Assembly (NCBI GenBank): GCA_014859215.1
Contig: JACUUS010000004.1
Location: 1-33,668, forward strand
Origin: Dehalococcoidia bacterium
GTDB taxonomy: Bacteria > Chloroflexota > Dehalococcoidia > SZUA-161
Direction of reading: 5' to 3'
DNA length: 33,668 bases
Shown in pieces: positions 1,432 to 31,987 of the stretch. Under the pieces are notes generated by a model, which ran no database searches, was not told the origin of the DNA, and was given only the letters and a program-made list of their open reading frames with translations. The stretch's first letter is position 1. Each line of letters opens with the position of its first letter. The translations under genes were made by a program, and so were the position numbers.

Positions 1432-2880
1432 ATGATAGGCATAACCTCTTTCGGTGCCTACATCCCCTGGCACCGCATGGACAGGCAACTCTGCGCAAAA
1501 GCCTGGGGCGGGTTCGCCATACCCGGTGAACGGGCCGTGGCCGGTTATGACGAGGATAGCGTCACCATGGCAGTCGAAGCCGCAATTGACTGCCTGGGCC
1601 ACCTGGAACCCGACAAGCTGGACGGCCTCTACTTTGCTACGACCACCTCGCCGTACAAGGAAAAACAGTGTTCAGCGCTCATGGCCCTGGCCCTCAGCCT
1701 GCGCCCCGATGTACGCACCGCGGACATAACTACCTCCCTGCGTTCCGGCACCAGCGCCCTGGCGATGGCTCTTGATTCGGTAAGAGCAGGGAGCCTGAAT
1801 AGCGTACTCGTCGCCGCGGCGGACAGCCGGGTAGCGGCCCCCGCCGGCATGCTCGAGCAGTCTCTTGGCGACGCCGCCGGTGCGGTGCTCATCGGCAATC
1901 ATGATGTGATAGCCGAAATCCAGAGTTCGTACACAATTTCGGATGAACTGGCCGGCAACTGGCGGTCAGAGAACGACACCTTCGTCCGGGCATGGGAAGA
2001 CCGGATGATTATGGATGAAAGCTATTCGCGAGTCATGCCCCAGGCAATCAATGGCCTGTTAGGCAAGTGCGGCCTTTCCGTCAAAGACGTCACAAGAGCC
2101 GTCTTTGATCCGCCGGGAGACATCCGGCGCCACGGCCGAGTAGCTTCTGACTTGGGTTTCGAACCATCACAGGTAACCGATCCCTCTTCGATCTTCATGA
2201 ACGTCGGCCTTCCCGGCTGCGCCATGTCACTCTTGATGCTTGCAGGCGCCCTCGAAAATGCGAGCCCCGGCGACACCATTCTTTTCGCAGGCTATGGCAA
2301 CGGCGCAGATGCGTTCTTGCTCCGGGTAACAGACGACACCCGGGGCCCGGAACAACGGCGCGGGTTCCGGAAACACCTCGCATCAAAGCACATGCTCGAT
2401 AACTACAACAGCTACCTCAGGTGGCGCGACATTGTCCCGGTTGAAGCCGCGCGCCGGTCGGAAAAAGGGCATATCTCCGTCTCCGCAAACTGGCGCGAGC
2501 GCAGGACCCTGCTCGGGCTCTGGGGAATCAAGTGCAGGCGCTGCGGCACCCCGCAGTACGACAGCGGCGCAATTACGACGACTCCTATCCGCGTCTGCGC
2601 CATATGCCAGGCACAGGATGACTTCGATGATTACAGTTTCGCCAGGAAGAAGGCGAAGGTATTCAGCTACACCCAGGACAACCTCGCACCGGCGATAGAT
2701 CCCCCCTCGTCCGTGGTCATGGTGGAGTACGAAGGCGGCGGAAGATCGCTCTTCGACCTTACTGACCGAGTCCCGGAAGAGGTCAAAGTGGGCATGGATG
2801 TAGAGATGGCCTTCAGAAAAGTGTACTTCGACCGGGGTATCAGCAACTACTTCTGGAAAGCCCGACCCATAAGGTGCTAG
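1432..2880 (+). CDS. HMG-CoA-synthase-like protein fused to a C-terminal DUF35 domain, catalytic residues absent
   Basis: Thiolase-superfamily protein of 482 residues. Residues 1 to about 320 match the archaeal-type HMG-CoA synthase / KAS-III-like fold (start MIGITSFGAYIP; GERAVAGYDEDSVTMA). A DUF35 tail follows: zinc ribbon C368-x2-C371 / C389-x2-C392, then an OB-fold. Compared with the family motifs, Cys (in FACKAGT) is L103, Glu (in SESHPY) is T71 and His (in FHQPN) is D226. Normal synthesis of HMG-CoA is therefore unlikely. A structural, acyl-CoA-holding or different catalytic role is possible. In archaea, thiolase, DUF35 and HMG-CoA synthase form one channelling complex; here a thiolase follows 10 bases downstream. 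ATG start with GAGGTG upstream. First gene of the plus-strand run. Domain assignment is firm; function is open. Confidence 0.85.
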   Translation: MIGITSFGAYIPWHRMDRQLCAKAWGGFAIPGERAVAGYDEDSVTMAVEAAIDCLGHLEPDKLDGLYFATTTSPYKEKQCSALMALALSLRPDVRTADITTSLRSGTSALAMALDSVRAGSLNSVLVAAADSRVAAPAGMLEQSLGDAAGAVLIGNHDVIAEIQSSYTISDELAGNWRSENDTFVRAWEDRMIMDESYSRVMPQAINGLLGKCGLSVKDVTRAVFDPPGDIRRHGRVASDLGFEPSQVTDPSSIFMNVGLPGCAMSLLMLAGALENASPGDTILFAGYGNGADAFLLRVTDDTRGPEQRRGFRKHLASKHMLDNYNSYLRWRDIVPVEAARRSEKGHISVSANWRERRTLLGLWGIKCRRCGTPQYDSGAITTTPIRVCAICQAQDDFDDYSFARKKAKVFSYTQDNLAPAIDPPSSVVMVEYEGGGRSLFDLTDRVPEEVKVGMDVEMAFRKVYFDRGISNYFWKARPIRC

Positions 2881-2890
2881 GAGGCAAGTC

Positions 2891-4063
2891 ATGCCAGGAA
2901 GCATAAGGGACCGGGTAGCGATTGTAGGCATGGGCTGCACCCGGTTCGGTGAACTCTGGGACAAAGGGCCAAGCGATTTGATCGTCGAGGCGGTGGATGA
3001 AGCCTGCAAAGATGCCGGGCTTGAGATAAAGGATATCCAGGCCGCATGGGGCGGCACCCTTTTCAGCGGCTCCGGAGGCCGCTCCGTAAGCGAACCTCTG
3101 CGGCTGCAATATATCCCTATAACGAGAGTGGAAAACGCGTGTGGTTCGGGGCACGACGCCGTCCGAAACGCCTCATATGCAGTCGCCGCCGGAATCTATG
3201 ACGTCGCGCTTGCCGTGGGTTTTGAGAAGCTCAAGGATGAGGGTACGAGCGGACTGCCGGGCATGGACAACCGCACCCACACTCACGCTGTTGCAACCAT
3301 GCCCGGCATGTTCGCGATGATGGCTACCAGGTATTTCGATCGCTATGGGCTCACTCCGCAGGAGGGAAAGACCATGCTGGCCAAAATATCGGTCAAGAGC
3401 CATCGCAACGGCTCCCTGAACCCGAAGGCCCATTTGAAGAACGTCCTGACCCTGGAAAGGGTGCTGAATGCTCCGATCATCGCCTGGCCGCTGGGCCTTT
3501 TTGACTGCTGCGGCGTTTCGGACGGCGCCGCTGCGGCAATCATAACGCGTGCGGACATGGCCGGTAATTTCCGCTCCGACCCGGTCTATATCAAGGCCCT
3601 TCAAATATGTACCAGCCCCACCTCCGGACGCATCACTTCGGAATATGATTACACGCACGTCGAGGAGGCATACCGGGCTGGAATCGCCGCCTATGCTGAG
3701 GCCGGTGTGAGGGAACCCCGCAAGGAAATCAGCATGGCCGAAGTCCATGACTGCTTCTCCATTACCGAAGCCGTCACTATGGAGGACCTCCAGTTCAGCG
3801 ATAGAGGACGCGTCAAAGAAGACATAGACGCCGGGATGTTCAATCTTGAAGGAGAACTTCCTGTCCAGCCCGACGGGGGTCTAAAATGCTTCGGCCATCC
3901 TATCGGAGCCTCTGGCATACGCATGCTCTACGAACTTTATCTCCAACTCCAGGGCCGAGCTGGCCCGCGCCAGATTGAAGACCCCAAACTGGGCCTCGCC
4001 CATAACATGGGCCACGAACCTTATGCACCTACCGTAAGCGTATGTATTCTCGGCCTCAAGTGA
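2891..4063 (+). CDS. SCP-x-type thiolase (acetyl-CoA acetyltransferase family)
   Basis: Thiolase of 390 residues expected to cleave a 3-oxoacyl-CoA with CoA, or run the reverse condensation. The catalytic set is complete: nucleophile C84 in VENACGSG, HDCF motif with H286 and C288, and GHP motif with H336 in KCFGHPIGASG. The start MPGSIRDRVAIVGMG is typical of SCP-x thiolases, and its ATG has an AGGAGG upstream. It follows the HMG-CoA-synthase-like/DUF35 fusion by 10 bases and precedes an acyl-CoA dehydrogenase. Relatives such as archaeal acetoacetyl-CoA thiolase and BbsB of the anaerobic toluene pathway work in complex with a DUF35 protein, so the fusion protein or the DUF35 gene at 5350 is a likely partner. 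Substrate unknown. Confidence 0.9.
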   Translation: MPGSIRDRVAIVGMGCTRFGELWDKGPSDLIVEAVDEACKDAGLEIKDIQAAWGGTLFSGSGGRSVSEPLRLQYIPITRVENACGSGHDAVRNASYAVAAGIYDVALAVGFEKLKDEGTSGLPGMDNRTHTHAVATMPGMFAMMATRYFDRYGLTPQEGKTMLAKISVKSHRNGSLNPKAHLKNVLTLERVLNAPIIAWPLGLFDCCGVSDGAAAAIITRADMAGNFRSDPVYIKALQICTSPTSGRITSEYDYTHVEEAYRAGIAAYAEAGVREPRKEISMAEVHDCFSITEAVTMEDLQFSDRGRVKEDIDAGMFNLEGELPVQPDGGLKCFGHPIGASGIRMLYELYLQLQGRAGPRQIEDPKLGLAHNMGHEPYAPTVSVCILGLK

Positions 4064-4098
4064 GGGGCTCGACCCGCTGGTAAAAGGAGGTGGTCATT

Positions 4099-5313
4099 TT
4101 GAACTTCACGCTCACTCCCCGTCAGCAGGCGGTGCGGAAAGAGTTTGAAGACTTCTTCCGTGAGGAGATGACGAAAGCGCCTCCGGTAGCAGGAGGCGAA
4201 AACATCTATGACAACGACGACGCATGGGCCTTCCATTGCGATATAGCGAGGAAACTTGGCCAAAGAGGCTGGCTCTCACTTCCCTGGCCCAAACAGTACG
4301 GCGGCCAGGAAGCTCCGATAATAGAACAGCTCCTGTTCAATGAAGTCCGTTCTTACTACAGGGCTCCCGGCGTAGACGTGCAGGGGATAGGCATGCTGGC
4401 TCCCACGTTGCTTGTCTCGGGCAATGAGAATCAGAAGCAGCAACACCTGCCTCCGCTGGCACGCGGGGAGACTACCTGGTGTCAGGGATGGAGCGAGCCA
4501 AATGCCGGCTCCGACCTGGCTTCCCTGACAACCAAAGCCGTGCGGCGCGGCGAAGACTACATCATAAACGGCCAGAAGACCTGGACCAGCGGAGCTCACA
4601 GGGCGCACTGGTGCTTCATGCTCGCCCGGACCGATCCCAACCAGCCGCGCCACCGCGGTCTCTCCTTCTTCCTGTTGGACATGAAAACCCCCGGTATTTC
4701 CCTGCGCCCGTTGAAAGGCATGGACGGCTCACACATGTTCAACGAGATGTTCTTCGACGATGTCCGTGTGCCCGCATCCAACCTCGTCGGCGAAGAAAAC
4801 CGAGGCTGGTACGTGAGCCTGATGACGATGAATTTCGAACGCTCCAGCGTCGGCGCCATGTCAGAGGCAAGACGTGTCGTGGAAGAGCTGGTCCAGTTCT
4901 GCAAAGAGAGCATGTTCGATGGCCGGCCTTTGTCTGAGGACCGCCTGGTGCGCAACCTCCTGGGGCAGATCACAATCGAAATTGACGTAGGGAAGGCTCT
5001 TTCATACCGTGTTGCCGCATTGCAGGAAAAGGGACAGGAGAACGCCCTGGAAGCTGCCATCGCCGCATCAGCAGCGAAGCTGTATGGCAGTGAGCTCGGG
5101 CAGCGCCTTGCCTATACGGGCTGCCGCGTGATGGGCCTTTACGGACAGGTCAAGGGCGGCTCCAGGTGGGCCCCGCTGAGAGGTTACTTCGAAAGCGCTT
5201 ACCAGCAGTGCCTGGGGATGAACATCGCCGCGGGAACGTCGGAGATACAGCGCAATGTCATCGCCGTCCGCGGACTCGACCTTCCCCGCGAGCCGGCACC
5301 GGCGAAGAACTGA
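4099..5313 (+). CDS. Acyl-CoA dehydrogenase
   Basis: FAD flavoprotein of 404 residues that introduces an alpha,beta double bond into an acyl-CoA and passes electrons to ETF. All three family regions are visible: N-terminal helical domain, middle domain with GWSEPNAGSDLASL and NGQKTWTSGA, and C-terminal domain ending in AAGTSEIQRNVIA. The Glu just before GTS in medium-chain enzymes is Ala here. E247 in NFERSS sits where isovaleryl- and long-chain-type enzymes carry their base, so it is the candidate catalytic residue. The start is a TTG at 4099, 8 bases after AAGGAGG; the in-frame GTG at 4090 overlaps that ribosome site. The result, MNFTLTPRQQ, is a typical beginning. It lies between the thiolase and a DUF35 gene. 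Substrate unknown. Confidence 0.9.
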   Translation: MNFTLTPRQQAVRKEFEDFFREEMTKAPPVAGGENIYDNDDAWAFHCDIARKLGQRGWLSLPWPKQYGGQEAPIIEQLLFNEVRSYYRAPGVDVQGIGMLAPTLLVSGNENQKQQHLPPLARGETTWCQGWSEPNAGSDLASLTTKAVRRGEDYIINGQKTWTSGAHRAHWCFMLARTDPNQPRHRGLSFFLLDMKTPGISLRPLKGMDGSHMFNEMFFDDVRVPASNLVGEENRGWYVSLMTMNFERSSVGAMSEARRVVEELVQFCKESMFDGRPLSEDRLVRNLLGQITIEIDVGKALSYRVAALQEKGQENALEAAIAASAAKLYGSELGQRLAYTGCRVMGLYGQVKGGSRWAPLRGYFESAYQQCLGMNIAAGTSEIQRNVIAVRGLDLPREPAPAKN

Positions 5314-5349
5314 AGTCCAGAGCAGAATAAATCCTGTAGAGGTGAACCT

Positions 5350-5766
5350 ATGACACAACCCGCTCCCGCATCGCCGCTCTTCTGGCGGTTTAAACCGGAA
5401 GTATTCAGACTCATTGGCATCAAGTGCAAGGACTGCGGTCATATCAGCTATCCCAGGACGAAGATATGTCATGAATGCGGAAGCCTGGAACTCGACGAAT
5501 ATCAACTCGCCAGAGGCGGCACGGTCCACACATACTGCGTAAACTGGGCTCCCCCACCCACCTTCGAAGCGCCCATCATGCCCGTCATAGTCGACCTCGA
5601 TGGAGGCGGCAGGTATCAGGGTCTGATGACTGAGACCGCCGACCCGGAGGAGGTGAAAATTGGGGCCAGGGTCGAAATGGTGTTCAGGAAGCTAACGACC
5701 GACCGGGGTCTCAACGTTTACGGATACAAGTTCCGCCTTAGCGAGGAGGCCGCCGATGAGAGGTAA
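5350..5766 (+). CDS. DUF35 protein: zinc ribbon plus OB-fold acyl-CoA-binding partner
   Basis: Small protein of 138 residues with an N-terminal rubredoxin-like zinc ribbon (C26, C29, C40, C43) and a C-terminal OB-fold (about 58-130; VIVDLDGGGRYQG, EEVKIGARVEM). DUF35 proteins bind thiolase-superfamily enzymes and help hold or channel acyl-CoA, as in the archaeal thiolase/HMG-CoA synthase complex, BbsA-BbsB and Ltp2-ChsH2. Its last 11 bases overlap the start of the next thiolase gene, suggesting translational coupling and a direct partnership with that thiolase. ATG start preceded by AGAGGTG. Its sequence resembles the DUF35 tail of the 1432-2880 fusion (LLGLWGIKC there, RLIGIKC here). Confidence 0.9.
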   Translation: MTQPAPASPLFWRFKPEVFRLIGIKCKDCGHISYPRTKICHECGSLELDEYQLARGGTVHTYCVNWAPPPTFEAPIMPVIVDLDGGGRYQGLMTETADPEEVKIGARVEMVFRKLTTDRGLNVYGYKFRLSEEAADER

Positions 5767-6946
5767 AGTCGCTGTAGTCGGCGTCGGGATGATCAAGTTC
5801 GGCGAGCTCTTCGAAAAGAGTCTCGAGACCATGATTCAGGAAGCTTACCTGAACTGCCTGAAGAACGTGGATAAAGGGATCGATCCGGGTGAGATCAAAG
5901 CGGCCTGGTTCGGACAGTGGAGCGGCGGCTTCATCGGGCAGGGAACCCAGAGCGGCCATTCCCTGACGAGTATGATCGGCAATCGCAATATACCCTGCAC
6001 CAGGCTCGAAAATGCCTGCCCCACCGGGGGTGATACTTTCAGACACGCTTGCCTGGGGGTCGCTTCAGGTCTGTATGATGTCGTGCTGGCGCTCGGCGCC
6101 GAGAAGATGAGGGACAAGCCTTCGGCGGAATCGCTGGGCGGAGCGGGAGGAGGCGGGGGCGCAGAGACCGGTTCGCACCCGGCCTGGATGATCGGGCAGG
6201 GCGGACCGGCGATTCAGGCCATGCACGCAACCCGTCAGATGTACCAGCTTGGCTACACCATGGAAGACTTCGCCAGGGTGGCAGTGAAGAACCATCATAA
6301 CGGCAGCTTCTGCCCTTTCGCCCATTACCAGTTCGACATCACGCTTGAACGTGTACTGAACAGTCCCATTATATGCTGGCCGCTTCACCTTTTTGACTGC
6401 TGTCCGCAGACCGATGGGGCGGCAGCGGCAATCGTATGCCGGGCGGACCTTGCCAGCAAATACAGCAACAAGCCCGTATACGTGCTGGGCAGTCATGTCG
6501 GCAACGACCACAACCAGCTCTGGGATCGGAGCAGCTTTGTCGAGCAGCTCTCGACAGTCAAAGCTGCAAAAGGAGCCTTCGAGATGGCCGGCGTCAAGCC
6601 GCGCGATGTTGATTTTGCCGAGCTGCACGACTGTTTTACCAACACCGAACTGATGAATATCGAAGACGTAGGCTTCGTACCTAAGGGCGAGGCCGCCGCC
6701 CGGCTCAAAAACGGCGAGTTCGACATGCAAGGACCGCTCCCCATAAACCCGAGCGGCGGATTGAAGGCGCATGGTCACCCCATCGCAGCCACAGGCCTCG
6801 GTCAGATATACGAGGTCGTTACCCAGCTCCGCGAGGAAGCAGACAAGCGCCAGGTGAAGCTCAAGAATGGAATTGGCCTTCAACACAACGTAGGCGGACC
6901 CGCGTTCGGAGTCGCCGTCGTAAATATCCTGTCTCGCTCCCTATGA
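5756..6946 (+). CDS. SCP-x-type thiolase, second copy
   Basis: Thiolase of 396 residues, paralogous to the one at 2891. Catalytic residues are intact: C88 in LENACPTGG, H291 and C293 in ELHDCF, H341 in AHGHPIAATG. A glycine-rich insertion (about residues 128-140, GGAGGGGGAE) follows the first half of the core. ATG start with GAGGAGG 6 bases upstream inside the preceding DUF35 gene, with an 11-base overlap. The following HMG-CoA-synthase-like gene begins 20 bases after its stop. The DUF35-thiolase-synthase order mirrors archaeal acetoacetyl-CoA thiolase/HMG-CoA synthase operons, but the synthase partner here lacks catalytic residues. Substrate unknown; carbon-carbon cleavage by thiolysis is the likely chemistry. 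Confidence 0.9.
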   Translation: MRGKVAVVGVGMIKFGELFEKSLETMIQEAYLNCLKNVDKGIDPGEIKAAWFGQWSGGFIGQGTQSGHSLTSMIGNRNIPCTRLENACPTGGDTFRHACLGVASGLYDVVLALGAEKMRDKPSAESLGGAGGGGGAETGSHPAWMIGQGGPAIQAMHATRQMYQLGYTMEDFARVAVKNHHNGSFCPFAHYQFDITLERVLNSPIICWPLHLFDCCPQTDGAAAAIVCRADLASKYSNKPVYVLGSHVGNDHNQLWDRSSFVEQLSTVKAAKGAFEMAGVKPRDVDFAELHDCFTNTELMNIEDVGFVPKGEAAARLKNGEFDMQGPLPINPSGGLKAHGHPIAATGLGQIYEVVTQLREEADKRQVKLKNGIGLQHNVGGPAFGVAVVNILSRSL

Positions 6947-6966
6947 CCGTGTTAAGGAGGATAACC

Positions 6967-7989
6967 TTGGCTGGAATAATCGGCTACGGGGTATATGTAC
7001 CGAAGTTCAGGCTTGAGCAAAAAGACGCTGCGATGCCGTGGGGAAGCTGGGCGAGCGGTGAAAAGGCGGTTTGCGGGGCGGACGAAGATGTCATAACCAT
7101 GGCCGCCGAGGCTGCGCAGAATGCTGTGAAACATGCAGGAATCGACCCTGCCCGGATCGGTGCCATCCACATCGGTACGGCGTCTTCACCCTATATCGAG
7201 CAGTATATCGCGCCCATACTGGCTGAGACCCTTGGGCTCGGGCCCGCGACCACCATGATTGACTACTCGGGCTCCGTCAATTCCCTGTCAAACGCGGTTC
7301 TCGGTTGCCTCGACGCGATTGCCGCCAAACGGATTGACTGCGGCATTGTTATCGGTGCTGAAGACCGCGCCACAGCACCGGGCACGGAGGGCGATGCGGC
7401 TTTCGGCGCGGGCGCGGTCGCTCTCGTGATCGGCAAGGCCGGCACTATAGCCGACTTTGAAGGCGTTCAGACCTATTCCACGCTGTTTCTCGACAGATGG
7501 CGGGCAGTCAAAGATTCCTGGGTCTCCAACATGAATGATTATCGGTTTGATCGGGAATTTGGCTACCAGAAGCACATTTTCGAAGCCTGCAAAAGCCTGC
7601 TTGCCGAACTGGGGAAGAATGCGGGTGATTACACCCATGTGATTTTCCAGCAGCCTGACGACCGAATAGCGGCCCTACCTGCGAAAGACCTCGGCATTGG
7701 GAAGGGACAGCTTGCGCCCGCTACAGCTTCCATCATAGGGGACCTCGGCTCATGCTCCGCCTTTGTCGGCCTGGCCGGCGTTCTGGACAGGGCCCAGCCG
7801 GGCGAGTCGATTCTCCTGGCTTCCTATGGCGCGGGCGCAAGCAATGCGATGAGCATCAAGGTGACAAATGAAATCACCGCCAAGGCAAATCGAATTGTTC
7901 CTCTGGTAAGGTACATGACGCGGAAGAGGCCCATTACATATACATCTTACCTGAGACTCAAAGAACAGGTCCGGCGGGCTCCTTATTAG
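6967..7989 (+). CDS. HMG-CoA-synthase-like protein, catalytic residues absent
   Basis: A protein of 340 residues, close to archaeal HMG-CoA synthase length, without the DUF35 tail carried by its paralogue at 1432. The shared N-terminus (MAGIIGYGVYVP; GEKAVCGADEDVITMA) shows they are duplicates. The three family catalytic positions are again replaced: Glu by A72 (GTASSPY), Cys by V104 (YSGSVNS) and His by Q228 (VIFQQPD). The C-terminal half keeps the GDLGSCSAFVGLAGVLD segment typical of the fold. Start TTG at 6967, 6 bases after AAGGAGG. An upstream ATG at 6943 overlaps the previous stop codon, has no proper ribosome site, and would add eight residues absent from the paralogue. It may be a structural subunit with the upstream thiolase and DUF35 protein. 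Confidence 0.85.
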   Translation: MAGIIGYGVYVPKFRLEQKDAAMPWGSWASGEKAVCGADEDVITMAAEAAQNAVKHAGIDPARIGAIHIGTASSPYIEQYIAPILAETLGLGPATTMIDYSGSVNSLSNAVLGCLDAIAAKRIDCGIVIGAEDRATAPGTEGDAAFGAGAVALVIGKAGTIADFEGVQTYSTLFLDRWRAVKDSWVSNMNDYRFDREFGYQKHIFEACKSLLAELGKNAGDYTHVIFQQPDDRIAALPAKDLGIGKGQLAPATASIIGDLGSCSAFVGLAGVLDRAQPGESILLASYGAGASNAMSIKVTNEITAKANRIVPLVRYMTRKRPITYTSYLRLKEQVRRAPY

Positions 7990-10093: not shown

Positions 10094-11839
10094 GTGAGCA
10101 AGGATGAACGTTACGACGTCGTGGTCATAGGCGGCGGACCGAACGGAATGACCACGGCTGCGTACCTGGCCAAGTCCAGGCTGAATGTATGTGTGCTCGA
10201 GGAACGGGTTGAGTGCGGGGGAGCTTGCGAGACCGTCGAACCCATACCTGGCGTCCGTATCTACCCGCACGCCATGCTCATGTACGCGGCTCCGGCTCCC
10301 GGCTTCCAACAGCTTGAGCTCCACAAGTATGGCTTTCGAATGATCTGGAATCCCATCGATATGATGGCGTCACTGGCTGCCGGAAGCACGACAACTCAGG
10401 GAGTGGTACCTATAACGCAAAAGGACATGATGGGATTCGCTAAGCTCGGCGGCCTGCTCGGTCAGCCTCCGTTCACGCGGGATCTTATGCGGGCAACTTT
10501 CTGGTGCCCCCCGCACCCGCCTGAAGTCGAGGTTACAGACGACAATGTCCCCTACATGCAGGTATATAAGCAGTACCAACCCGATGTCGTTACCCCGGAA
10601 CTCCGCGAGTGGACCATGTTCGATCTCATGGATGAGTACCTGGAGAGCGAGCCATTCAAGGTCACCATGGCATTCGCAGCCTGGGCTTCAGGAGCAGCCG
10701 GCCACTGGGAAGGCGTGGCTATTCCGGCTCTTCTATGCGTGCAACTTCTCATACTTCCGAACACCGGCAAGCTGAGCATTCCTCGCGGCGGGCTGCATGG
10801 CTACTTCCATGCCATACACCGATGCGCTGTCGCCAATGGCGCCACAGTCCGCACTTCATGTCCCGTCGAGGAAATAATCGTCAATGACGGCCGAGCCGTC
10901 GGTGTTCGTCTTCGCGAAACCTCAGCCCTCGGCGGAAGGAAGATCTGGGCAGATAAAGCGGTGATAGCGGCGGTCGACTACCGCCAGACTTTCTTCGATA
11001 TGGTCGGGAAGCAGCACCTCGATCCGGGGTTCCTGCAGAAAGTCAAGGATATCAGCCTGAAGAACGGCACCCTGTATGTATCTACACTGCATACAAAAAG
11101 GCCGCTCCAATGGAAACCAAGATTCAAAGCGATGGTCGACTCCGGAACAGGCGTGTCCGGCCCCTTCAGTGTTCCCTCCGGCGGGGTCTATCCGTCAGAT
11201 TCGCGCGAGCTCTACTACGAAAACGTTGCCGACTGCGACGCACGCAAGACCAACCCGACACTGCCTCCCGAGAAGCTGATGTGGTTCCTTACTCCATCAC
11301 AGGCTTTCAATCCCTCCGACTGCCAGAGTAAGTACGCGAACGGCCATATCTCAGCAGCTTTCGAAGTCAACGTGCCGGTCCCCGAGTACCACGTACAAGG
11401 GCCCGACGCTATGTGCAGGTCGAAGCCGGAAATCGACGCCTATATGAGGAAAGCATTTGGCCAGGCCTTCGACGGCACTGATGACGACAACATCATCCAC
11501 CACTGGTCGGCGACCGGCTACGAGGTGGAGTTCCGTAATTCAGGGCTCATAGGAGGCACCTGGTGTGGTTCGCGCCATTGCAGCGACCAATCCTGGACGC
11601 AGCGCCCTATTCCTGAACTTGCCCGCTACCGCACTCCGATAGACGGACTTTATACCTGCCATCAGACTACCGGGCATCCTGGTGGGCTGTGCCTCATGGC
11701 GATTCCCTATAACCTTATGCACATTCTGATCGAGGACAGGATCGCCGAACCAGGCAACTGGTGGTACCCCTCTCCCTGGTACATACCCCAGCAAGGCAAG
11801 ACATCCGCCGTACCTTACGGGGCCGGTGGGGGCAAGTGA
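10094..11839 (+). CDS. FAD-dependent oxidoreductase, phytoene-desaturase-like (1 of 5)
   Basis: Flavoprotein of 581 residues. The N-terminal FAD-binding Rossmann motif is GGGPNG at 13-18, followed by the family GG doublet (VECGGACE) and a C-terminal FAD-contact segment (GLYTCHQTTGHPGG). This family includes carotenoid desaturases and many uncharacterised dehydrogenases or isomerases of hydrophobic substrates; the reaction here cannot be assigned. No signal peptide is evident. Start GTG at 10094 with GAAGGAG upstream. The 77-base gap before it is one of the largest in the cluster and could hold an internal promoter. The next FAD gene overlaps its stop by one base, so the two are probably made together. 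It is more distant from the 11839 and 20403 proteins than those two are from each other. Confidence 0.85.
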   Translation: MSKDERYDVVVIGGGPNGMTTAAYLAKSRLNVCVLEERVECGGACETVEPIPGVRIYPHAMLMYAAPAPGFQQLELHKYGFRMIWNPIDMMASLAAGSTTTQGVVPITQKDMMGFAKLGGLLGQPPFTRDLMRATFWCPPHPPEVEVTDDNVPYMQVYKQYQPDVVTPELREWTMFDLMDEYLESEPFKVTMAFAAWASGAAGHWEGVAIPALLCVQLLILPNTGKLSIPRGGLHGYFHAIHRCAVANGATVRTSCPVEEIIVNDGRAVGVRLRETSALGGRKIWADKAVIAAVDYRQTFFDMVGKQHLDPGFLQKVKDISLKNGTLYVSTLHTKRPLQWKPRFKAMVDSGTGVSGPFSVPSGGVYPSDSRELYYENVADCDARKTNPTLPPEKLMWFLTPSQAFNPSDCQSKYANGHISAAFEVNVPVPEYHVQGPDAMCRSKPEIDAYMRKAFGQAFDGTDDDNIIHHWSATGYEVEFRNSGLIGGTWCGSRHCSDQSWTQRPIPELARYRTPIDGLYTCHQTTGHPGGLCLMAIPYNLMHILIEDRIAEPGNWWYPSPWYIPQQGKTSAVPYGAGGGK

Positions 11840-13485
11840 TGACTATGCAAGACTACTTCGGGCACATGTTCGAGGAGTTCCCCGAGGAGAGTACCTGGGA
11901 CGCCGTCATTATTGGGGGCGGTCCAAACGGCCTGATAGCAGCGGCTTACCTTGCCAGAGCCGGGTTAAAGGTGGCCCTGGCGGAGGCCCGATACGAGATC
12001 GGAGGCGGACTCGCCACTGAAGAGATACTCTATCCCTGTTACTCTACGAACCCCCACGTCATTTATCACATGATGGTCGACTACATGCCCGTCCTCAAGG
12101 ACTTCAACCTGGACGGCCCATCCCTGGTCTGGATCAAGCCTAACGCTCAGACGGGCATCGTATTCGAGGACGGGAAGTCTCTGCTTCTCGCCCGCATGAT
12201 CGAGGACACCAAGGATTCGATGAGCAAGTTCTCTTTCAAGGATGCCGTGCGGTTTGGCAAGCTTATGAGAAGCTGGCGTCGGATTGTTGATGAGATCCTT
12301 GCGCCGGCGACCTACGTACCAGTCATGACCCCTCTGGAAATGACGATGGCCTTGCAGAAGACCAGAGTCGGGACTGAAATGCTGGAACTCATCGAGCAAA
12401 GCCCCCTTGAAATAATTACGGCAAACTTTGAAAGTGACCATATCAGGACTCTTCTCCTTTACACGAGTTGCATGTGGGGCCTCGATCCACGAGAGACAGG
12501 CATCGGCATGTTCGTTGCCCTGATGCTCTGTCGCGGGATGAACAAGTGCTATTGCTACGGCGGTTCACACAAGTTCGCGGGCGCACTGGCGCGAGAGATA
12601 TACAGGGCCGGCGGGTTGATACTCGAACACGCCCCCGTGACCAGAATTGTCTTTGAGGGCGGCCGCGCCGCCGGTGTCGAGCTCGCTGAGGGTCGCACTT
12701 TGCACAGTAAGGCTGTCTTGTCGACCCTCGACCCGCAAACTACCTTCTTCGACCTCCTGGGTGCTGACAACCTGCCGGCCGATCTTAAAGACTACGTGGC
12801 AAACTGGAAATCCGACAAATGGAGCTACTACACGCTGCATGTAGCCACACATGAACCACCCCGGTACAAGTGCGATGACCCCTGGATTAGCGATGCCTTC
12901 ATGACCATTTTCGGCCTGGAGGGTACCGGTCAACTGCTTGCACACTGGGACAGGGTCATGGCGGGAGACATCGGCGACATTTTCGGCGGTCACGCAACCT
13001 GCCAGACCATATTCGACCCCATGTTATCCGACAAGGCAGGCAAGCATGTTTCCTTTTTCCAGATGCACGCACCTTACGATATCACGGGAGGCTGGGACCA
13101 GAGAGGGAAAGAGCTGGAAGAGGCGATACTGGCGAAGTGGCAGGAAGCTGCCCCCAATATGACCAGGGAAACCAGGATTATGACCACCTTCGAGACGCCG
13201 CGCGATATCCAGATAAGATTCCCGAATATGCGCCGTGGCGGGATAAAGCACGGCGACTACCGGCCCATCCAGCTCGGCTCATTCCGTCCAAACCAGGACT
13301 GCTCCGGTACGAACACGCCGATACAGGGTCTCTATGTGTGCGGAGCCTCCACTTATCCAGGGGGAATGGTCCTTGGAGGTCCTGGTTATCTTGGAGCCAA
13401 TAAGGTGGCTGAAGATTTGGGAGTCCAGAAATGGTGGAAGCCGACACCCGAGATGCAGCGTTACCTGAAGACATACATCGAATAA
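11839..13485 (+). CDS. FAD-dependent oxidoreductase, phytoene-desaturase-like (2 of 5)
   Basis: Flavoprotein of 548 residues. FAD motif GGGPNG at 26-31, GG doublet in YEIGGGLATEE, and C-terminal FAD segment GLYVCGASTYPGG. The start is taken as the ATG overlapping the preceding TGA by one base, with GGGGG 6 bases upstream. Longer in-frame GTG starts lie wholly inside the upstream gene. An ATG six bases downstream is also possible. Clear paralogue of the protein at 20403: both share NxHxxYHMMVDY near the N-terminus, RPNQDCS near the C-terminus and an EDLGxxKWW end. The pair may form a heteromer or act on successive intermediates. Function unassigned beyond redox chemistry on a probably hydrophobic or CoA-bound substrate. 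Confidence 0.85.
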   Translation: MTMQDYFGHMFEEFPEESTWDAVIIGGGPNGLIAAAYLARAGLKVALAEARYEIGGGLATEEILYPCYSTNPHVIYHMMVDYMPVLKDFNLDGPSLVWIKPNAQTGIVFEDGKSLLLARMIEDTKDSMSKFSFKDAVRFGKLMRSWRRIVDEILAPATYVPVMTPLEMTMALQKTRVGTEMLELIEQSPLEIITANFESDHIRTLLLYTSCMWGLDPRETGIGMFVALMLCRGMNKCYCYGGSHKFAGALAREIYRAGGLILEHAPVTRIVFEGGRAAGVELAEGRTLHSKAVLSTLDPQTTFFDLLGADNLPADLKDYVANWKSDKWSYYTLHVATHEPPRYKCDDPWISDAFMTIFGLEGTGQLLAHWDRVMAGDIGDIFGGHATCQTIFDPMLSDKAGKHVSFFQMHAPYDITGGWDQRGKELEEAILAKWQEAAPNMTRETRIMTTFETPRDIQIRFPNMRRGGIKHGDYRPIQLGSFRPNQDCSGTNTPIQGLYVCGASTYPGGMVLGGPGYLGANKVAEDLGVQKWWKPTPEMQRYLKTYIE

Positions 13486-13516
13486 TCCAAACCCGCTGGC
13501 AAGCTGGGGGTGAATA

Positions 13517-14734
13517 GTGGCTAAGAATAGAGACGGCGCGCTGGGAGTCTACCGGGTCCTTGACCTGACAGACAGCAATGGAGCTTATTGCGCAAGGTTG
13601 CTGGGAGACCTCGGCGCAGATGTAATCAAGGTCGAGCCGCCAACTGGAGACCCCGGCCGCTCGCTGCCGCCATTTGCCGGAGACGTGCCTCACTCAGAGA
13701 AGAGTCTGTATTTCCTTCATCGCAACGCCAATAAACGCGGAGTTACCCTGAACCTTACGACGAGCGACGGAAGGCGCATACTCAAGCAGCTGATCGGCAC
13801 ATCAGATGTCCTGATTGAGAACTTCCCCCCTGATTACCTCAAAAGCCTGGACCTCGATTATCCGAAGCTTCATCGGCTAAACGCCCGGCTTATTGTTGCC
13901 AGCATAACAGAGTTCGGTCACGCCGGTCCGTACAAAGACCGAAAGGGCTCCAACCTGGTCAACTTTGCCATGAGCGGCGTCATGATTACAAGCGGTTTTC
14001 CGGGCAAAGCACCCTGTCTCTGCCCGGGATCGCCCGCCTATGACGCCGCCGCGCTGCATGCCGCCATAGCGATAGTGACAGCGCTCTTGACTCGCGGGTC
14101 AAGCGGAAAGGGCCAGTACATCGATACCTCGGTCCACGAAACATCACGCCTCGGCCTGTACCCGTGGATAATCCCCAATTACTCGTACGCACTTAATCCC
14201 GACGGGCCCCCACCCAGCCCCGAATCAAGGATGGGAGCAGCCATTTACCCTGTATACCCCTGCAAGGACGGTCTCATTCGGGTTATCGCGCTCACCCCTC
14301 GCCAGTGGGATGCCCTTGTCCGTGTGCTGGGCAGTCCCGAAGTCTTGCTCATAGACGAATGGCGGAGCTTCATGTACAGGATCGGAAATTCGGCAGACCT
14401 CTATGCGCTCGTGACTGAGTATACCGAGAAGTACACAATGCTGGAACTCTTCGAAGCAGGGAAAAGAGAGGGAGTGCCGATCGCGCCCATTTTCAGCATC
14501 GAGAATTTCATCGAGAGTCCTCACACCAGAGCAAGAAAGTCCTTCGTCGAGGTTAATCATCCCGTGGCCGGTCGCGCTCCTTATCCGGTTCCACCCTACA
14601 AGTGGTCCGTGACTCCCGCCTATCTACGCCGCCCCGCTCCGTGCCTTGGCCAGCATAATGAGGAAGTCTATTGCAGCGAACTGGGCCTGTCGCTAGCCGA
14701 GCTGACCGCCCTCAGAGGCGCAGGAGCACTGTGA
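13517..14734 (+). CDS. Family III CoA-transferase (CaiB/BaiF type), first of two
   Basis: Cytoplasmic CoA-transferase of 405 residues, normal family length. It moves CoA from a donor acyl-CoA to a free carboxylic acid through an aspartyl intermediate. Family signatures: RVLDLTDSNGAYCARLLGD, LGADVIKVEPP near the N-terminus, VLIENFPPDYL, and GKGQYIDTS with D203 as candidate nucleophile. C-terminal GVPIAPIFSIENF and HPVAGRAPYPVPP segments are as expected. Start GTG at 13517 with GGGGGTG upstream. A second family III gene follows after 10 bases. Family III enzymes commonly activate carnitine-, bile-acid-, phenyllactate- or oxalate-type acids, so this fits an activation step. Substrate unknown. 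Confidence 0.9.
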   Translation: MAKNRDGALGVYRVLDLTDSNGAYCARLLGDLGADVIKVEPPTGDPGRSLPPFAGDVPHSEKSLYFLHRNANKRGVTLNLTTSDGRRILKQLIGTSDVLIENFPPDYLKSLDLDYPKLHRLNARLIVASITEFGHAGPYKDRKGSNLVNFAMSGVMITSGFPGKAPCLCPGSPAYDAAALHAAIAIVTALLTRGSSGKGQYIDTSVHETSRLGLYPWIIPNYSYALNPDGPPPSPESRMGAAIYPVYPCKDGLIRVIALTPRQWDALVRVLGSPEVLLIDEWRSFMYRIGNSADLYALVTEYTEKYTMLELFEAGKREGVPIAPIFSIENFIESPHTRARKSFVEVNHPVAGRAPYPVPPYKWSVTPAYLRRPAPCLGQHNEEVYCSELGLSLAELTALRGAGAL

Positions 14735-14744
14735 AGGAGGACAT

Positions 14745-15980
14745 ATGCGACCTCTAGACGACGTCAGGGTACTCAGTTTCGGAACAGGCGGAGTCGTGCC
14801 CGATGCGTGCAAAATCCTCGGAGAACTTGGAGCCGATGTCATCAAGATAGAATCCAAGGATAACCTCGATTTCATGCGAACTATCGGCCCCGATATCAAC
14901 AACATAGCCGGGTTTAATGAAGCGAACCGCAGTAAGAGGAGCTTCGGAGTCAACCTGAAGAGCGAGCGAGGCCGGGAGATCATACGACGCCTGCTGAAAA
15001 AAGCCGATATTCTGGCTGAGAATTTCCGCGGCGGTGTAATGCAAAGCCTGGGGTTCGATTACAGGAGTGTGCGCAAGCTAAACAAGTCAATAATCTACAT
15101 CAGCAGTCAGGGTTTCGGGGGCGGAGGCCCTTACAGCGATTTCCAGGCTTACGGTCCTATGCTCTCCTCAGCTTCCGGAATGCTGTCTATCTGGTCACAG
15201 CCGGATGATCCCTATCCTGTAGGGTCGAACTCTCCCCTGCCGGACCACATGGCAAGCAAACACGTGGTCATAGCGGTCCTGGCAGCTCTCGACTACCGCC
15301 GAAGGACAGGGAAGGGACAGTTCATTGATATGGCCCAGACCGAGGTGGCGGTCAATCTCATCGGGGAGCATTACCTGGACTATACGTATAATGGGCGCGT
15401 AGCCAGGCCGTCGGGAAACCGCAGTACCCACGCAGCCCCGCATGGATGTTATCCATGCCACGGCCCCGATGAATGGTGTGCAATTACGGTCCACACAGAT
15501 CAGGAGTGGGAGGATTTCCGTGAAGCCCTGGGTGATCCGGCCTGGGCAAGAGACTCGAAATTCATCGACATATTATCCCGTCTCAAGAACGTCGATGAAC
15601 TGGATGAGCACGTGAAGCAATGGACAGTTCAGCGAAATGCACATGAAATTATGGAGACAATGCAAAAGGCCGGCATCGCCGCCGGCGTAGTGCAGCGCGC
15701 CCCGGATTGCATTGCCGATCCTCAACTCACCTGGCAGGGCGCAGTAATTGAACTGGACCACCCTGTCGCCGGGAAGAGACTCTACCCGAATGTTCCCTTC
15801 AAGCTTTCGGCGTATCCCTCGTTATGGAGCACAAGGGCTCCTCTTCTCGGCGAACATACAGATGAAATTTGCCGCGATATCCTGGGGATGACCGATAAGG
15901 AAATAGCGGGCCTCCTGGCCGCGGAGATTCTTCATAACCCATCCAATACCTCCGGAACCGGCAAGAGCATGTTCGGCTAA
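14745..15980 (+). CDS. Family III CoA-transferase (CaiB/BaiF type), second of two
   Basis: CoA-transferase of 411 residues. Diagnostic segments: DDVRVLSFGTGGVVPDACKI, LGADVIKIESKDNLDFMR, ILAENFRGGVMQSLG and GKGQFIDMAQTE with D195 as candidate nucleophile. ATG start with AAGGAGG and a short spacer, 10 bases after the stop of the first copy. The two copies are clearly diverged, so they either form a heteromer or handle different acids, for example substrate entry versus a later intermediate. A zinc alcohol dehydrogenase follows after 26 bases. Family assignment is firm; specificity is unknown. Confidence 0.9.
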   Translation: MRPLDDVRVLSFGTGGVVPDACKILGELGADVIKIESKDNLDFMRTIGPDINNIAGFNEANRSKRSFGVNLKSERGREIIRRLLKKADILAENFRGGVMQSLGFDYRSVRKLNKSIIYISSQGFGGGGPYSDFQAYGPMLSSASGMLSIWSQPDDPYPVGSNSPLPDHMASKHVVIAVLAALDYRRRTGKGQFIDMAQTEVAVNLIGEHYLDYTYNGRVARPSGNRSTHAAPHGCYPCHGPDEWCAITVHTDQEWEDFREALGDPAWARDSKFIDILSRLKNVDELDEHVKQWTVQRNAHEIMETMQKAGIAAGVVQRAPDCIADPQLTWQGAVIELDHPVAGKRLYPNVPFKLSAYPSLWSTRAPLLGEHTDEICRDILGMTDKEIAGLLAAEILHNPSNTSGTGKSMFG

Positions 15981-16006
15981 ACAGAGTATTCCTGAGGAGG
16001 TCTTAA

Positions 16007-17119
16007 ATGAAGGCCGCTGTATGCTACGAGCCCAATACGCCACTTCGCATAGAGGAAGTGGAGCTTGATAGTCCGCAGGCAAACGAAATCCTGGTCAGGA
16101 TTGCAGCCACCGGTATCTGCCACAGCGATCTGCATTTTCTGAAGGGTGAAATGCCGGCTGCCATGCCCATAGTGATGGGCCATGAGGGAGCCGGGATCGT
16201 TGAGGAGGTCGGGCCCGGCGTGACCTCCCTCAAGCCAGGTGACCACGTCGTTATGGCGGTGGCCTTTTCCTGCGGCAACTGCTCGTACTGTAGAGAAGGA
16301 CGTCCAACCATGTGCGTGGAGAATCTACCTGTTATGTCCGGCGCGGTCCTGCCCGTCGGGGGAGGCACGCGTTTGCATAAGGACGGCAAGCCGTTACACC
16401 ATCTGTTCGGCCTGGCTTCATTTGCGGAGTACACCGTTATCCATGAGAGATCAGCTATAAAGGTCCGGAATGACGCCCCATTCGAAGTGGTCTGCCTGCT
16501 GGGGTGCGGCGTCAGCACGGGCCTGGGCGCCGCCATGAACACGGCTGCAGTGAAACCTGGCGAGAGTATAGCAATCTTCGGCTGCGGCGGTGTTGGATTG
16601 AGCGCGGTGATGGGCGCCAAACTCGCCGGAGCAGGCAAAATCATTGCCGTTGACATGCTTGACCGGAAGCTCAGCATGGCCAAAGAGCTCGGGGCAGATT
16701 ATACGGTGAATGCTTCACAAGAAGAGCCGGTGGGCAAAGTAATGGAGATTACGGGCTCGGGCGTCGACTACGCAATTGAATGCATCGGTAACGTCAATGT
16801 CATGTCGCAGGCATTCTCTTCCATTCGGTACGGAGGCAAGTGCATTGTGGCTGGAATGGCGCCTCTCGGGGCCATGTTTAGCGTCGCCCCATTCGAGTTT
16901 CTCCTGGGCAAGACTATTACCGGCACCGTCCAGGGCGACATCAGGGGCGCAATCGATATCCCCAGGTACATCGACCTTTACATGGACGGCAAACTGCCGC
17001 TGGACAAGCTTATCTCAAGCTACTACACGCTGGAAGAGGTCAATCAGGCTTTCGAGGCTCTCGGGAAGGGAGAGATAATACGCAGCATTATACGCTTCCC
17101 GAAAGCTGGTTCCAAGTAG
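16007..17119 (+). CDS. Zinc-dependent alcohol dehydrogenase (medium-chain, class III-like)
   Basis: NAD-linked alcohol/aldehyde interconversion enzyme of 370 residues. Catalytic zinc ligands C38 (GICHSD), H59 (GHEGAG) and C167 (GCGVSTG) are present. Structural zinc ligands C89, C92, C95 and C103 are also present. The Rossmann motif is GCGGVG at 192-197, and D216 after the second strand favours NAD over NADP. ATG start with GAGGAGG upstream. It sits between the CoA-transferase pair and an FAD oxidoreductase. It could oxidise a hydroxyl intermediate or reduce an aldehyde released from CoA-ester cleavage, in parallel with the aldehyde:ferredoxin oxidoreductase at 8037. Substrate not deducible. 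Confidence 0.93.
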   Translation: MKAAVCYEPNTPLRIEEVELDSPQANEILVRIAATGICHSDLHFLKGEMPAAMPIVMGHEGAGIVEEVGPGVTSLKPGDHVVMAVAFSCGNCSYCREGRPTMCVENLPVMSGAVLPVGGGTRLHKDGKPLHHLFGLASFAEYTVIHERSAIKVRNDAPFEVVCLLGCGVSTGLGAAMNTAAVKPGESIAIFGCGGVGLSAVMGAKLAGAGKIIAVDMLDRKLSMAKELGADYTVNASQEEPVGKVMEITGSGVDYAIECIGNVNVMSQAFSSIRYGGKCIVAGMAPLGAMFSVAPFEFLLGKTITGTVQGDIRGAIDIPRYIDLYMDGKLPLDKLISSYYTLEEVNQAFEALGKGEIIRSIIRFPKAGSK

Positions 17120-17134
17120 GTAAAGGGGGGAAAC

Positions 17135-18862
17135 ATGGCAGACGCAACATTCGATGCGGTCATTGTCGGCGGGGGAAACAAGGGGCTCCTCCTTGCCATG
17201 TATTTGATCAAGTACGGCGGCCTGAGCGTCGGCATCTTCGAACGCAGGCACGAAATCGGCGGCTGCCTCTCAACGGAAGAGATTTCAGCGCCCGGCTTCC
17301 GTGGCAACGATCATGCAAACATCATTCTGCCCTGGTACTATGCTCCGGTTTGGCGCGACTTCCCTGAGTTCTGGGATTATGGCGCCCAGTGGGACCAGCA
17401 TCTCTGCGCCGACGGTTTCGTATTCGGCAATAACGAGAGTGCGATCGCAATTTATAGCGATAAGTGGGACCCGACCGGGGAGCGCACGGCAAAAGAGATT
17501 GCACGCTTCTCAAAGAAGGATGCCGACACGTGGCTCAGGCTCATGGCCCTGGAGAAAAGTGACGAGTATCAGAGGGTCCAGATGGACACGCTTTTCCTGC
17601 CGGCTGAAATGCGGCTCGCTCCCGGAGTTATGGAAAGGCAAATGGCTGTCTATCCCAAGCTGGTGGAAGCCGGCTTTGTTCCCGATTCGGCGATACTGGC
17701 GGCCAGCACGATGCGCTCTGCCAGGGAGTGGTTTGTAAGCCCCGAACTCCAGTCGTGCATCCTCCGTTTTGCGGTCTCTTCAGTTAATGACGTAAGCGAA
17801 CCGGGACAGGGCATGAATGCGATGGGTTTTGCGGCAACCCTCCCCACTATAGGCTTCGCCAGGGGAGGTACTCATCAAGTCGCCCATGCCGCACATCAGG
17901 TGCTGGTCCAGAACGGGTGCAAGTTCTTCACCCACGCTGAGGTTAAGAACGTAATCATCGAGAACGGTTCTGCAACGGGCATCCGCCTTAGCGACGGGTC
18001 CGAGATCGGCGCACGAAAACTGGTCGTATGCGCCGGTTTGAGTCCCGAGCAGCTCTGCTTCGATATGATAGGCCGGCAATACATTGATGAGGTACTGGCA
18101 AGACGTGTCGAGCTTATCGAGAACACCTTCGGCTGTCTCATGTGGTATACATTCGCTATCCACGAGGCCCCGAAATACAAGGCGGAAGCATTCAATCCGG
18201 ATATACATGATTGCCAGTGGCTTGGCCTGCAGCCCGACCCTGACCCCGAACATATCGCACGGGAATGCAGGTGGGTGAAACTGGGACTCTGGCCGCCGTT
18301 CGAGGACTACGCTCCTACCGTTGGCGTCCATAGTCTCGTGGACCCTTCTTATGCCCCACCAGGCAAGCATGTCGCGCAGAACGAGCAACTGGGTCCGCCC
18401 GCGGGACGCCATACCCCAAAGGAGTGGATCGAAATCAAGAAGCGTTACGCCGATGAACTCATCCAGATCTGGGAGCAGTACGCGCCCAACATGACCTGGG
18501 ATAATGTTATCGGCGTGGACACCAACAGTCCGTACGATAACCTCCGCATGAAGAACCTGGCCCCGCACGGCACCATGGCCGGCATAGACCGCACAACATT
18601 CCAGATTGAAAACAACCGCCCTACACCTGAGCTGGCAAACCATCGCACTCCCATAAAGAATCTCTACGCGACCGGTGGCTGCTGGCATGTAGGATCGAAC
18701 GCCGGCTCCAGCGAGTCATACAACTGCTACAAGATCATCGCGACGGATATGGGCCTGGGCAAGCCCTGGGAGGAACCCGGCAAGGAAGAGCCCGATTCAT
18801 TGATCCAGCAACTGTGGGAAGTGAGAAAGCGCGTACGGGCCTCGGCAACCCGCAAGCCTTGA
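17135..18862 (+). CDS. FAD-dependent oxidoreductase, phytoene-desaturase-like (3 of 5)
   Basis: Flavoprotein of 575 residues. The N-terminal motif is GGGNKG (about 12-17), an unusual variant of the GGGPNG seen in its neighbours, followed by HEIGGCLSTEE. The C-terminal FAD region NLYATGGCWHVGSNAG lacks the PGG of copies 1, 2 and 4. A YAPNMTWDN stretch is shared with copies 2 and 4 (APNMT), showing common descent. ATG start after a run of six G bases. It follows the alcohol dehydrogenase and precedes a CoA-transferase subunit pair. Redox chemistry on a hydrophobic substrate is likely; exact reaction unknown. Confidence 0.85.
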   Translation: MADATFDAVIVGGGNKGLLLAMYLIKYGGLSVGIFERRHEIGGCLSTEEISAPGFRGNDHANIILPWYYAPVWRDFPEFWDYGAQWDQHLCADGFVFGNNESAIAIYSDKWDPTGERTAKEIARFSKKDADTWLRLMALEKSDEYQRVQMDTLFLPAEMRLAPGVMERQMAVYPKLVEAGFVPDSAILAASTMRSAREWFVSPELQSCILRFAVSSVNDVSEPGQGMNAMGFAATLPTIGFARGGTHQVAHAAHQVLVQNGCKFFTHAEVKNVIIENGSATGIRLSDGSEIGARKLVVCAGLSPEQLCFDMIGRQYIDEVLARRVELIENTFGCLMWYTFAIHEAPKYKAEAFNPDIHDCQWLGLQPDPDPEHIARECRWVKLGLWPPFEDYAPTVGVHSLVDPSYAPPGKHVAQNEQLGPPAGRHTPKEWIEIKKRYADELIQIWEQYAPNMTWDNVIGVDTNSPYDNLRMKNLAPHGTMAGIDRTTFQIENNRPTPELANHRTPIKNLYATGGCWHVGSNAGSSESYNCYKIIATDMGLGKPWEEPGKEEPDSLIQQLWEVRKRVRASATRKP

Positions 18863-18899
18863 GGATCCGCTTTCACACACCTCATATGGAGGTCTGCCA

Positions 18900-19622
18900 A
18901 TGCCGGTAAACAAGATAGTAACCAGTTTCGACGAAGCGGTTTCCGATGTGCAGGATGGGGCCACCATCATGGTCGGCGGATTCGGCACCGTTGTAAGCAT
19001 GCCTAGCTGCCTGCTCGAGGCAATCTACCGAAGAGGAGTGAAGAACCTCGTAACCGTTTCAAACAGCAGCGGTTTCGGGGCCGATGTCTGGCGTATGCAG
19101 GGCGCACCTTTCCCGGAGGACATGGACATCCTCGTCAGAAACGAGCGCATTAAAAAGGCAATAGTATCCGCGCCGGTGAGCGCTCTGTACGTGAACAATT
19201 TCGAGAAGCTACTAAGAGCGGGCAAGGTGCAGGTGGAGATGGTGCCTCAGGGGACACTGGCAGAGCGCATCAGGGCAGCCAAGGCCGGCATCGGCGCCTT
19301 CTATGTCCCGGTGGGAGTCGGCACAGTGATCGAGGAGGGTAAAGAAAAGAGAGTATTCGACGGAAAGGAATACCTGCTTGAGCGCCCCATCAAGGCGGAC
19401 TTCGCTCTCATACACGCTCGCATGGGCGACCGTTGGGGAAACCTGGTCTACCGGGGAACCTCCAGGACTTTCAATCCGACGATGGCCGGAGCTGCCAGGG
19501 TAACAATCGCCGAGGTTGACGAGATAGTCGAGCTTGGCGAACTCGACCCGGAAACGATTGTCACCCCGGGCATTTACGTTGATAGAGTCGTGGCGCGGCC
19601 GAAACAGGCTTCCGCCAGTTAG
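18900..19622 (+). CDS. Family I CoA-transferase, subunit A
   Basis: Alpha subunit (240 residues) of a 3-oxoacid/glutaconate-type CoA-transferase, which forms a heteromer with the product of the next gene. The glycine-rich CoA-contact segment near the N-terminus (GATIMVGGFGTVVSMP) and the PVGVGTVIEEGK and RPIKADFALIHA segments are characteristic. It carries no catalytic Glu, as expected for subunit A. ATG start with GGAGG 7 bases upstream. The B subunit begins 35 bases after its stop. This is a third CoA-transferase system in the window beside the two family III enzymes. Substrate unknown. Confidence 0.9.
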   Translation: MPVNKIVTSFDEAVSDVQDGATIMVGGFGTVVSMPSCLLEAIYRRGVKNLVTVSNSSGFGADVWRMQGAPFPEDMDILVRNERIKKAIVSAPVSALYVNNFEKLLRAGKVQVEMVPQGTLAERIRAAKAGIGAFYVPVGVGTVIEEGKEKRVFDGKEYLLERPIKADFALIHARMGDRWGNLVYRGTSRTFNPTMAGAARVTIAEVDEIVELGELDPETIVTPGIYVDRVVARPKQASAS

Positions 19623-19657
19623 AGGAAAGTGGAGCCAGAAGACGGGGGTTACATGGT

Positions 19658-20338
19658 ATGGGCAATCTAGCTGAAAAGGAAAGACTTGACAGACAGGTGA
19701 TGGCATTGCGCGTCGCCACGGAATTCCAGGATGGCAACGTTGTAAACCTGGGTATAGGCATACCGACCCTCGCCTCCAACTTCGTCCCGGCGGGTCGTGA
19801 AATTATCTTCCATACCGAGAACGGGGCTCTCGGATTTGGCGAGATTAATCTCCCGGGTGAAGGGGACCTCGACCTGGTGAATGCGGGAGGCCAGACTGTC
19901 AAACCCCAGCCAGGAATGTGCTTCTTCAGCCACGATGAGTCCTTTGCTATGATTCGCGGAGGCCACGTCGACATCAGCGTGATGGGGGCCTACCAGGTCT
20001 CCGAAAAAGGCGATCTGGCCAATTACATGATACCGGAAAGGCAAGTCGGCACGATCGGCGGGGCAATGGACCTTGCCTGCGGGGCAAAGAGACTCATAGT
20101 TACCATGAACCACACTACGAAGACAGGGGAAGCGCGCATAGTCAAGGAGTGCGCCTATCGCCTGACGGCGCGAGCCTGTGTAGACCTCATAGTAACCGAC
20201 CTCGCCGTCATCGAAGTCACCGCCAACGGACTGCTTCTCAAAGAGGTGGCTCCCGGATGGTCCCCTGACGAGGTTCAGAGTCTGACCGAGCCTGATCTCA
20301 TCGTAGCTGCTGATTGCCATGAAATCGCCCTGATGTAA
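19658..20338 (+). CDS. Family I CoA-transferase, subunit B
   Basis: Beta subunit of 226 residues carrying the catalytic glutamate: E54 in HTENGALG, the (S/T)ENG motif of this family. VVNLGIGIPTLASNFV upstream and GGAMDLACGAKRLIVTMNHT downstream are standard subunit B segments. Length is normal. ATG start at 19658; an out-of-frame ATG 5 bases earlier opens only five codons. It pairs with the A subunit directly upstream. The enzyme would transfer CoA between two acids through a glutamyl-CoA thioester, recycling the CoA of a product or activating a substrate. Confidence 0.92.
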   Translation: MGNLAEKERLDRQVMALRVATEFQDGNVVNLGIGIPTLASNFVPAGREIIFHTENGALGFGEINLPGEGDLDLVNAGGQTVKPQPGMCFFSHDESFAMIRGGHVDISVMGAYQVSEKGDLANYMIPERQVGTIGGAMDLACGAKRLIVTMNHTTKTGEARIVKECAYRLTARACVDLIVTDLAVIEVTANGLLLKEVAPGWSPDEVQSLTEPDLIVAADCHEIALM

Positions 20339-20402
20339 ACTGCTGTGCACTCTTGGCGCGTGAAATTGGAATCCAGCCAATGCCGTGATAAGGAGGCAAC
20401 AA

Positions 20403-22034: not shown

Positions 22035-22054
22035 GACCTGAAAGGAGCTTGCTA

Positions 22055-22306: not shown

Positions 22307-22386
22307 GATTGTTCGCTCCGGTGTCCTCCCCCGGTTTGTGAAGGAAATGAGCTGCTCCAGGCCTGAAATAAGAGAGGGGGCCAATC

Positions 22387-25899: not shown

Positions 25900-25912
25900 T
25901 TGGAGGTACGAA

Positions 25913-30292: not shown

Positions 30293-30305
30293 GGAGGCTT
30301 ACCTC

Positions 30306-31532: not shown

Positions 31533-31538
31533 CAGCAG

Positions 31539-31967: not shown

Positions 31968-31987
31968 CTCAGGCGAGGGTATGAGCA

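Follow-up and report, generated by a model that had tools for sequence, protein, structure and literature searches.

HMG-CoA-synthase-like proteins without catalytic residues as probable scaffolds in thiolase complexes of a Dehalococcoidia bacterium

Two gene modules at the start of the window

The window, a stretch of 33,668 bases from a single contig in an assembly of 2.5 Mb with an estimated contamination of 7.7%, opens with two three-part modules on the forward strand, each of which combines a protein resembling HMG-CoA synthase (HMGCS), a thiolase and a DUF35 domain. The named relatives nearest for these genes are found in Dehalococcoidia/Chloroflexota assemblies (70 and 69% identity). 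In the first module, an open frame of 482 amino acids (1432-2880) encodes an A-B fusion subunit, in which alignment, AlphaFold2 modelling and domain matches place an HMGCS-like part at residues 1-335 and a fused DUF35 zinc-ribbon/OB domain at residues ~350-482, so that this protein is not a simple synthase homologue. It is followed by its cognate thiolase, the C subunit (2891-4063), which is of the archaeal/SCP2 type and retains Cys84, His286 (HDCF) and His336 (GHP). A gene for an acyl-CoA dehydrogenase resembling pimeloyl-CoA dehydrogenase (4090-5313) separates this module from the second, which consists of a separate DUF35 zinc-ribbon/OB linker subunit B' (5350-5766), a second thiolase C' with intact ENACPTG, HDCF and GHP motifs (5756-6946) and a stand-alone HMGCS-like subunit A' (6967-7989). 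The frame of the latter is likewise open (6943/6967-7989; 340 amino acids counted from the TTG at 6967), and a strong Shine-Dalgarno sequence, AAGGAGG, precedes the TTG. Both thiolases thereby carry the nucleophilic Cys, HDCF and GHP motifs of archaeal/SCP2-type 3-ketoacyl-CoA thiolases. One relative, L020, repeats the order of fused gene, thiolase, DUF35, thiolase and stand-alone HMGCS-like gene without the dehydrogenase.

Further along the window, a cluster at 10094-23904 holds five carotenoid-oxidase/phytoene-dehydrogenase-like FAD proteins (10094, 11761, 17135, 20385 and 22387) together with an aldehyde ferredoxin oxidoreductase, two CaiB CoA-transferases and a Zn alcohol dehydrogenase. 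Four more thiolase-fold proteins, which lack the nucleophilic Cys, HDCF and GHP, are encoded pairwise at 24742-27082 and 30249-33163, and two DUF35 genes accompany each pair (27086 and 27610; 31539 and 33160). In the second pair, one protein retains the Tyr of the YDxF motif seen in Ltp2/Sal-type aldolases and the other shows DDAY, which suggests that these pairs may be aldolase heterodimers with a dead partner. That the FAD oxidoreductases, the aldehyde ferredoxin oxidoreductase and the Ltp2-like proteins of the window hint at a bulky alicyclic or isoprenoid-like substrate is only a guess.

Loss of the catalytic residues and its extent

Archaeal-type HMG-CoA synthases are defined by a catalytic Glu, Cys and His, and neither protein of the window retains any of the three. 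In alignment with the archaeal HMGCS of PDB 6ESQ, the corresponding columns hold T71, L103 and D226 in the fused protein, with its His column uncertain by one residue because of an insertion in its subclade (P227 if the insertion is respected), and A72, V104 and Q228 in the stand-alone protein. These are the columns at which the residues had initially been reported as replaced, and alignment with characterised HMGCS and KAS-III enzymes confirms the loss. The columns can be trusted, since all 22 of 22 canonical archaeal HMGCS show SESHPY, ACKAGT and HQPN at these positions and FabH sequences nearly all show Cys and His.

The full-length folds are kept, as had also been proposed: AlphaFold2 models of the fused and the stand-alone protein, with an input alignment run without three plasmid sequences, are confident (pLDDT 92.3 and 88.1), and the structures closest to both are the 6ESQ HMGCS, PhlA and a subunit of MucABC, with PhlA also the best sequence match in the PDB for the fused protein. 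DSSP assignment of the models places L103 and V104 just ahead of the helix that follows a strand, that is, at the nucleophile turn where the catalytic Cys sits. Judged from their residue content, both proteins would be unable to make HMG-CoA. Both score below the cut-off of TIGR00748 (142 and 218 bits for the fused and the stand-alone protein, against 353); for NF003274 (NCBIfam PRK04262, 'hydroxymethylglutaryl-CoA synthase', cut-off 244), the fused protein stays below at 208 bits, yet the stand-alone protein reaches 269 bits without any catalytic residue, which likely leads to systematic mis-annotation.

The loss is uniform across the sampled family. The fused form is present as nine genes in this genome, all nine of which lack the three residues, and the database holds no fewer than 579 stretches with it. 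Among 134 distinct fused sequences that were sampled, 130 have none of the three residues, three have only the Glu, one has only the His and none has the Cys; the fused relatives L111-L113, which retain the Glu, look like a putative intermediate state. In twelve stand-alone relatives of the 6967 type, which come from the same class and include two partial sequences, every catalytic residue that is covered is likewise missing. The loss across paralogues and relatives is therefore a family trait and not an accident of one genome. A copy 65% identical to the fused protein occurs in a Desulfobacteraceae assembly (L021), through horizontal transfer or a binning error.

Missing catalytic residues, together with the faster evolution of the HMGCS-like part (mean distance 0.52 for the nine paralogues, against 0.39 for their thiolases), could also be read as the signature of decaying or duplicated HMG-CoA synthases heading for loss. 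Intact frames, however, are seen in hundreds of sequences that span several phyla and a single archaeal lineage, the folds are confidently predicted, and dN/dS is about 0.1 (0.09-0.13) for the least saturated pairs. On the grounds of selection and conservation, pseudogene decay was ruled out as highly improbable, in agreement with the original view that decay is unlikely.

A different reading gives the HMGCS-like subunits an alternative set of catalytic residues, for instance for a retro-Claisen or hydrolytic step via Thr71 and Ser102. Thr occupies the Glu column in 111 of 126 fused proteins and the Ser before the Cys column (Ser102) is well conserved, and the stand-alone family shows the like for Ser103 (11/12) and Asn105 (12/12), so that these residues, which stand where the catalytic ones were, may retain a role in binding or chemistry. 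A search for an alternative Cys/His set in the fused HMGCS-like domain, however, found no conserved pair: the best His is present in only 86 of 126 sequences, and C54, the sole Cys with strong conservation, is part of a helix distant from the nucleophile position. The residue at the His column of the fused family varies between P, Y and A, and C114 and H203 of the stand-alone protein are inherited from the catalytic type, since the catalytic 6ESQ enzyme has both. As such, independent catalysis by these subunits seems quite unlikely.

Partner thiolases and the proposed complexes

In this genome, every one of the nine fused genes is followed directly by a cognate thiolase, and the nine thiolases are closely related. 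Beyond this genome, an adjoining thiolase was detected at 75 of 80 database loci; of the remaining five, three are contig ends, and L036 and L052 are exceptions in which the sequence continues beyond the gene. Across 91 fused-thiolase pairs, the thiolase Cys is present in 91 of 91 and the two His residues in 85 of 85 and 84 of 84 where covered. The distance matrices of the two partners correlate with r 0.77 over the 91 pairs and with r 0.72 (P 5e-5) over the nine paralogous pairs of this genome, and a correlation among paralogues of the same genome does not reflect species history. The fused HMGCS-like and partner-thiolase families thus co-evolve; both are under purifying selection. On a 6.5 kb contig of the same genome (L013, G000:C225), one fused-thiolase pair directly adjoins another in tandem, which suggests that the module has multiplied by duplication.

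The uniform loss, the purifying selection and the strict pairing with an intact thiolase fit the earlier suggestion of non-catalytic thiolase-superfamily subunits. The further suggestion that the two copies form a heterodimeric lyase is unlikely and was rejected: the copies fall into different clades and have separate thiolase and DUF35 partners, and the fused form recurs across this genome and the database.

The available data are most compatible with a model in which both proteins are catalytically silent subunits, most likely scaffolds, of two complexes of thiolase, DUF35 and HMGCS-like protein, and it is probable that the thiolase carries out CoA-dependent 3-ketoacyl-CoA chemistry in them. 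In architecture, the complexes would resemble the archaeal thiolase-HMGCS complex and PhlACB, and the partner thiolase would perform all the chemistry, with its Cys attacking a 3-ketoacyl-CoA and then being freed by CoA, or with the reverse condensation. The HMGCS-like subunit would keep its fold, hold the assembly together and probably shape a shared CoA/acyl cavity via the DUF35 linker, which is fused in the first module and encoded by a separate gene in the second. Binding of an acyl-CoA by the HMGCS-like subunit, which had been envisaged from the start, would be plausible. The setting would be the beta-oxidation of bulky or branched acyl-CoA.

Since PhlA and MucABC share both the three-part gene set and the residue loss, and since the stand-alone protein has a Gln at the His column as PhlA does, the complexes could instead be PhlACB-like acyltransferases, which C- or N-acylate a small acceptor and in which the HMGCS-like subunit would still be non-catalytic. 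The thiolases at 2891 and 5756, however, match archaeal acetoacetyl-CoA thiolase with 254 and 210 bits, compared to only 78 and 71 bits for PhlC, and thereby resemble CoA-dependent thiolases instead. The neighbours of fused genes are acyl-CoA dehydrogenases, MaoC hydratases, SDRs and CoA-transferases. At eight loci, mainly from Desulfobacteraceae/Deltaproteobacteria (L079, L082, L088, L090, L093, L094, L097 and L098), the fused protein is even extended by an SDR dehydrogenase and then by an SCP2 sterol-carrier domain (796-914 amino acids in all), with the thiolase adjoining downstream; these extensions were recognized by sequence inspection and checked against Pfam for two, L082 and L097. Both window proteins, furthermore, fall outside the PhlA clade. 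An acyltransferase function is therefore rather improbable, and the likeness to CoA-using thiolases, the SDR-SCP2 fusions and the acyl-CoA neighbours together point to beta-oxidation thiolysis.

Precedents and evolutionary origin

The proposed architecture has precedents. PhlA (PDB 5M3K, 5MG5 and 9SKH), a subunit of an acyltransferase defined by C-acyl transfer independent of CoA, shares with both proteins the HMGCS fold, the loss of Glu, Cys and His (Cys/Gly/Gln at the three columns) and thiolase-fold and DUF35 partners, and the gene set of the PhlA type, with an intact Cys/His thiolase-fold subunit and DUF35, is present for both. The structure paper states that PhlA lacks the key Cys and Glu, and that in PhlACB the substrate is contacted only by PhlC residues, which alone act in acyl transfer, even though all three subunits are required (PMC6392133). 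MucABC of Streptococcus macacae (PDB 9VBO and 9VBT), named an acyltransferase complex by its depositors in the structure entry, likewise has an HMGCS/KAS-III-like subunit in which the three residues are replaced (Cys/Glu/Gln in 9VBO). These precedents make the proteins, which had been put forward as a possible new class, an instance of a known architecture. DUF35 is fused in the 1432 protein, which sets it apart from PhlA, and MucABC has no fusion either. This fused version is very common and seems to be undescribed so far; a literature search found no paper describing a fused HMGCS-like-DUF35 family. The novelty is as such a widespread, apparently uncharacterised form of the PhlA-type architecture.

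The archaeal HMGCS makes HMG-CoA for mevalonate. Its complex with thiolase (6ESQ) has the same three components and provides the nearest fold for both proteins as well as the nearest solved thiolase, but its HMGCS keeps the Glu, Cys and His that both window proteins lack. BbsAB (benzoylsuccinyl-CoA thiolase), Sal-Shy and Ltp2-ChsH2 also combine a thiolase-fold enzyme with a DUF35 domain in acyl-CoA degradation; to our knowledge, none of them has an HMGCS-like third subunit.

In a maximum-likelihood tree, PhlA, the archaeal protein L193 and MucABC, the last on a very long branch with PhlA, cluster with catalytic HMGCS (95/72); the proteins of the window, by contrast, fall into a separate clade of fused and stand-alone bacterial forms (87/77). 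The tree thereby favours two independent losses, in the window family and in PhlA, but the test (p-AU 0.41) does not reject a tree in which the dead forms are constrained to one group, which is compatible with a single common loss. L193, a PhlA-like protein with TCTNPY, FSGKSGT and FQQP, comes from the archaeal phylum of a Hadesarchaea genome; it lacks the catalytic residues, and the relatives of that genome have canonical HMGCS, so the PhlA-type loss has also occurred in archaea. A more tentative scenario is that HMGCS lost catalysis independently of PhlA and gave rise to a large bacterial and archaeal family of non-catalytic subunits, which might tune the acyl specificity of fused DUF35-thiolase complexes by lodging part of a bulky acyl chain in the emptied pocket; the nine sets of this genome might then be thiolases for different substrates.

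These results call for a correction of annotation, as neither protein is likely to be a mevalonate-pathway synthase, even though one scores above a curated cut-off. In addition, they indicate that the pairing of a dead HMGCS with a live thiolase, known from a small number of acyltransferases of the antibiotic type, also exists in a widespread catabolic form, which occurs in Chloroflexota, Desulfobacterota, Bacillota and Pseudomonadota as well as in some archaea. An assay would tell what a non-catalytic partner of the thiolase superfamily adds to acyl-CoA cleavage.
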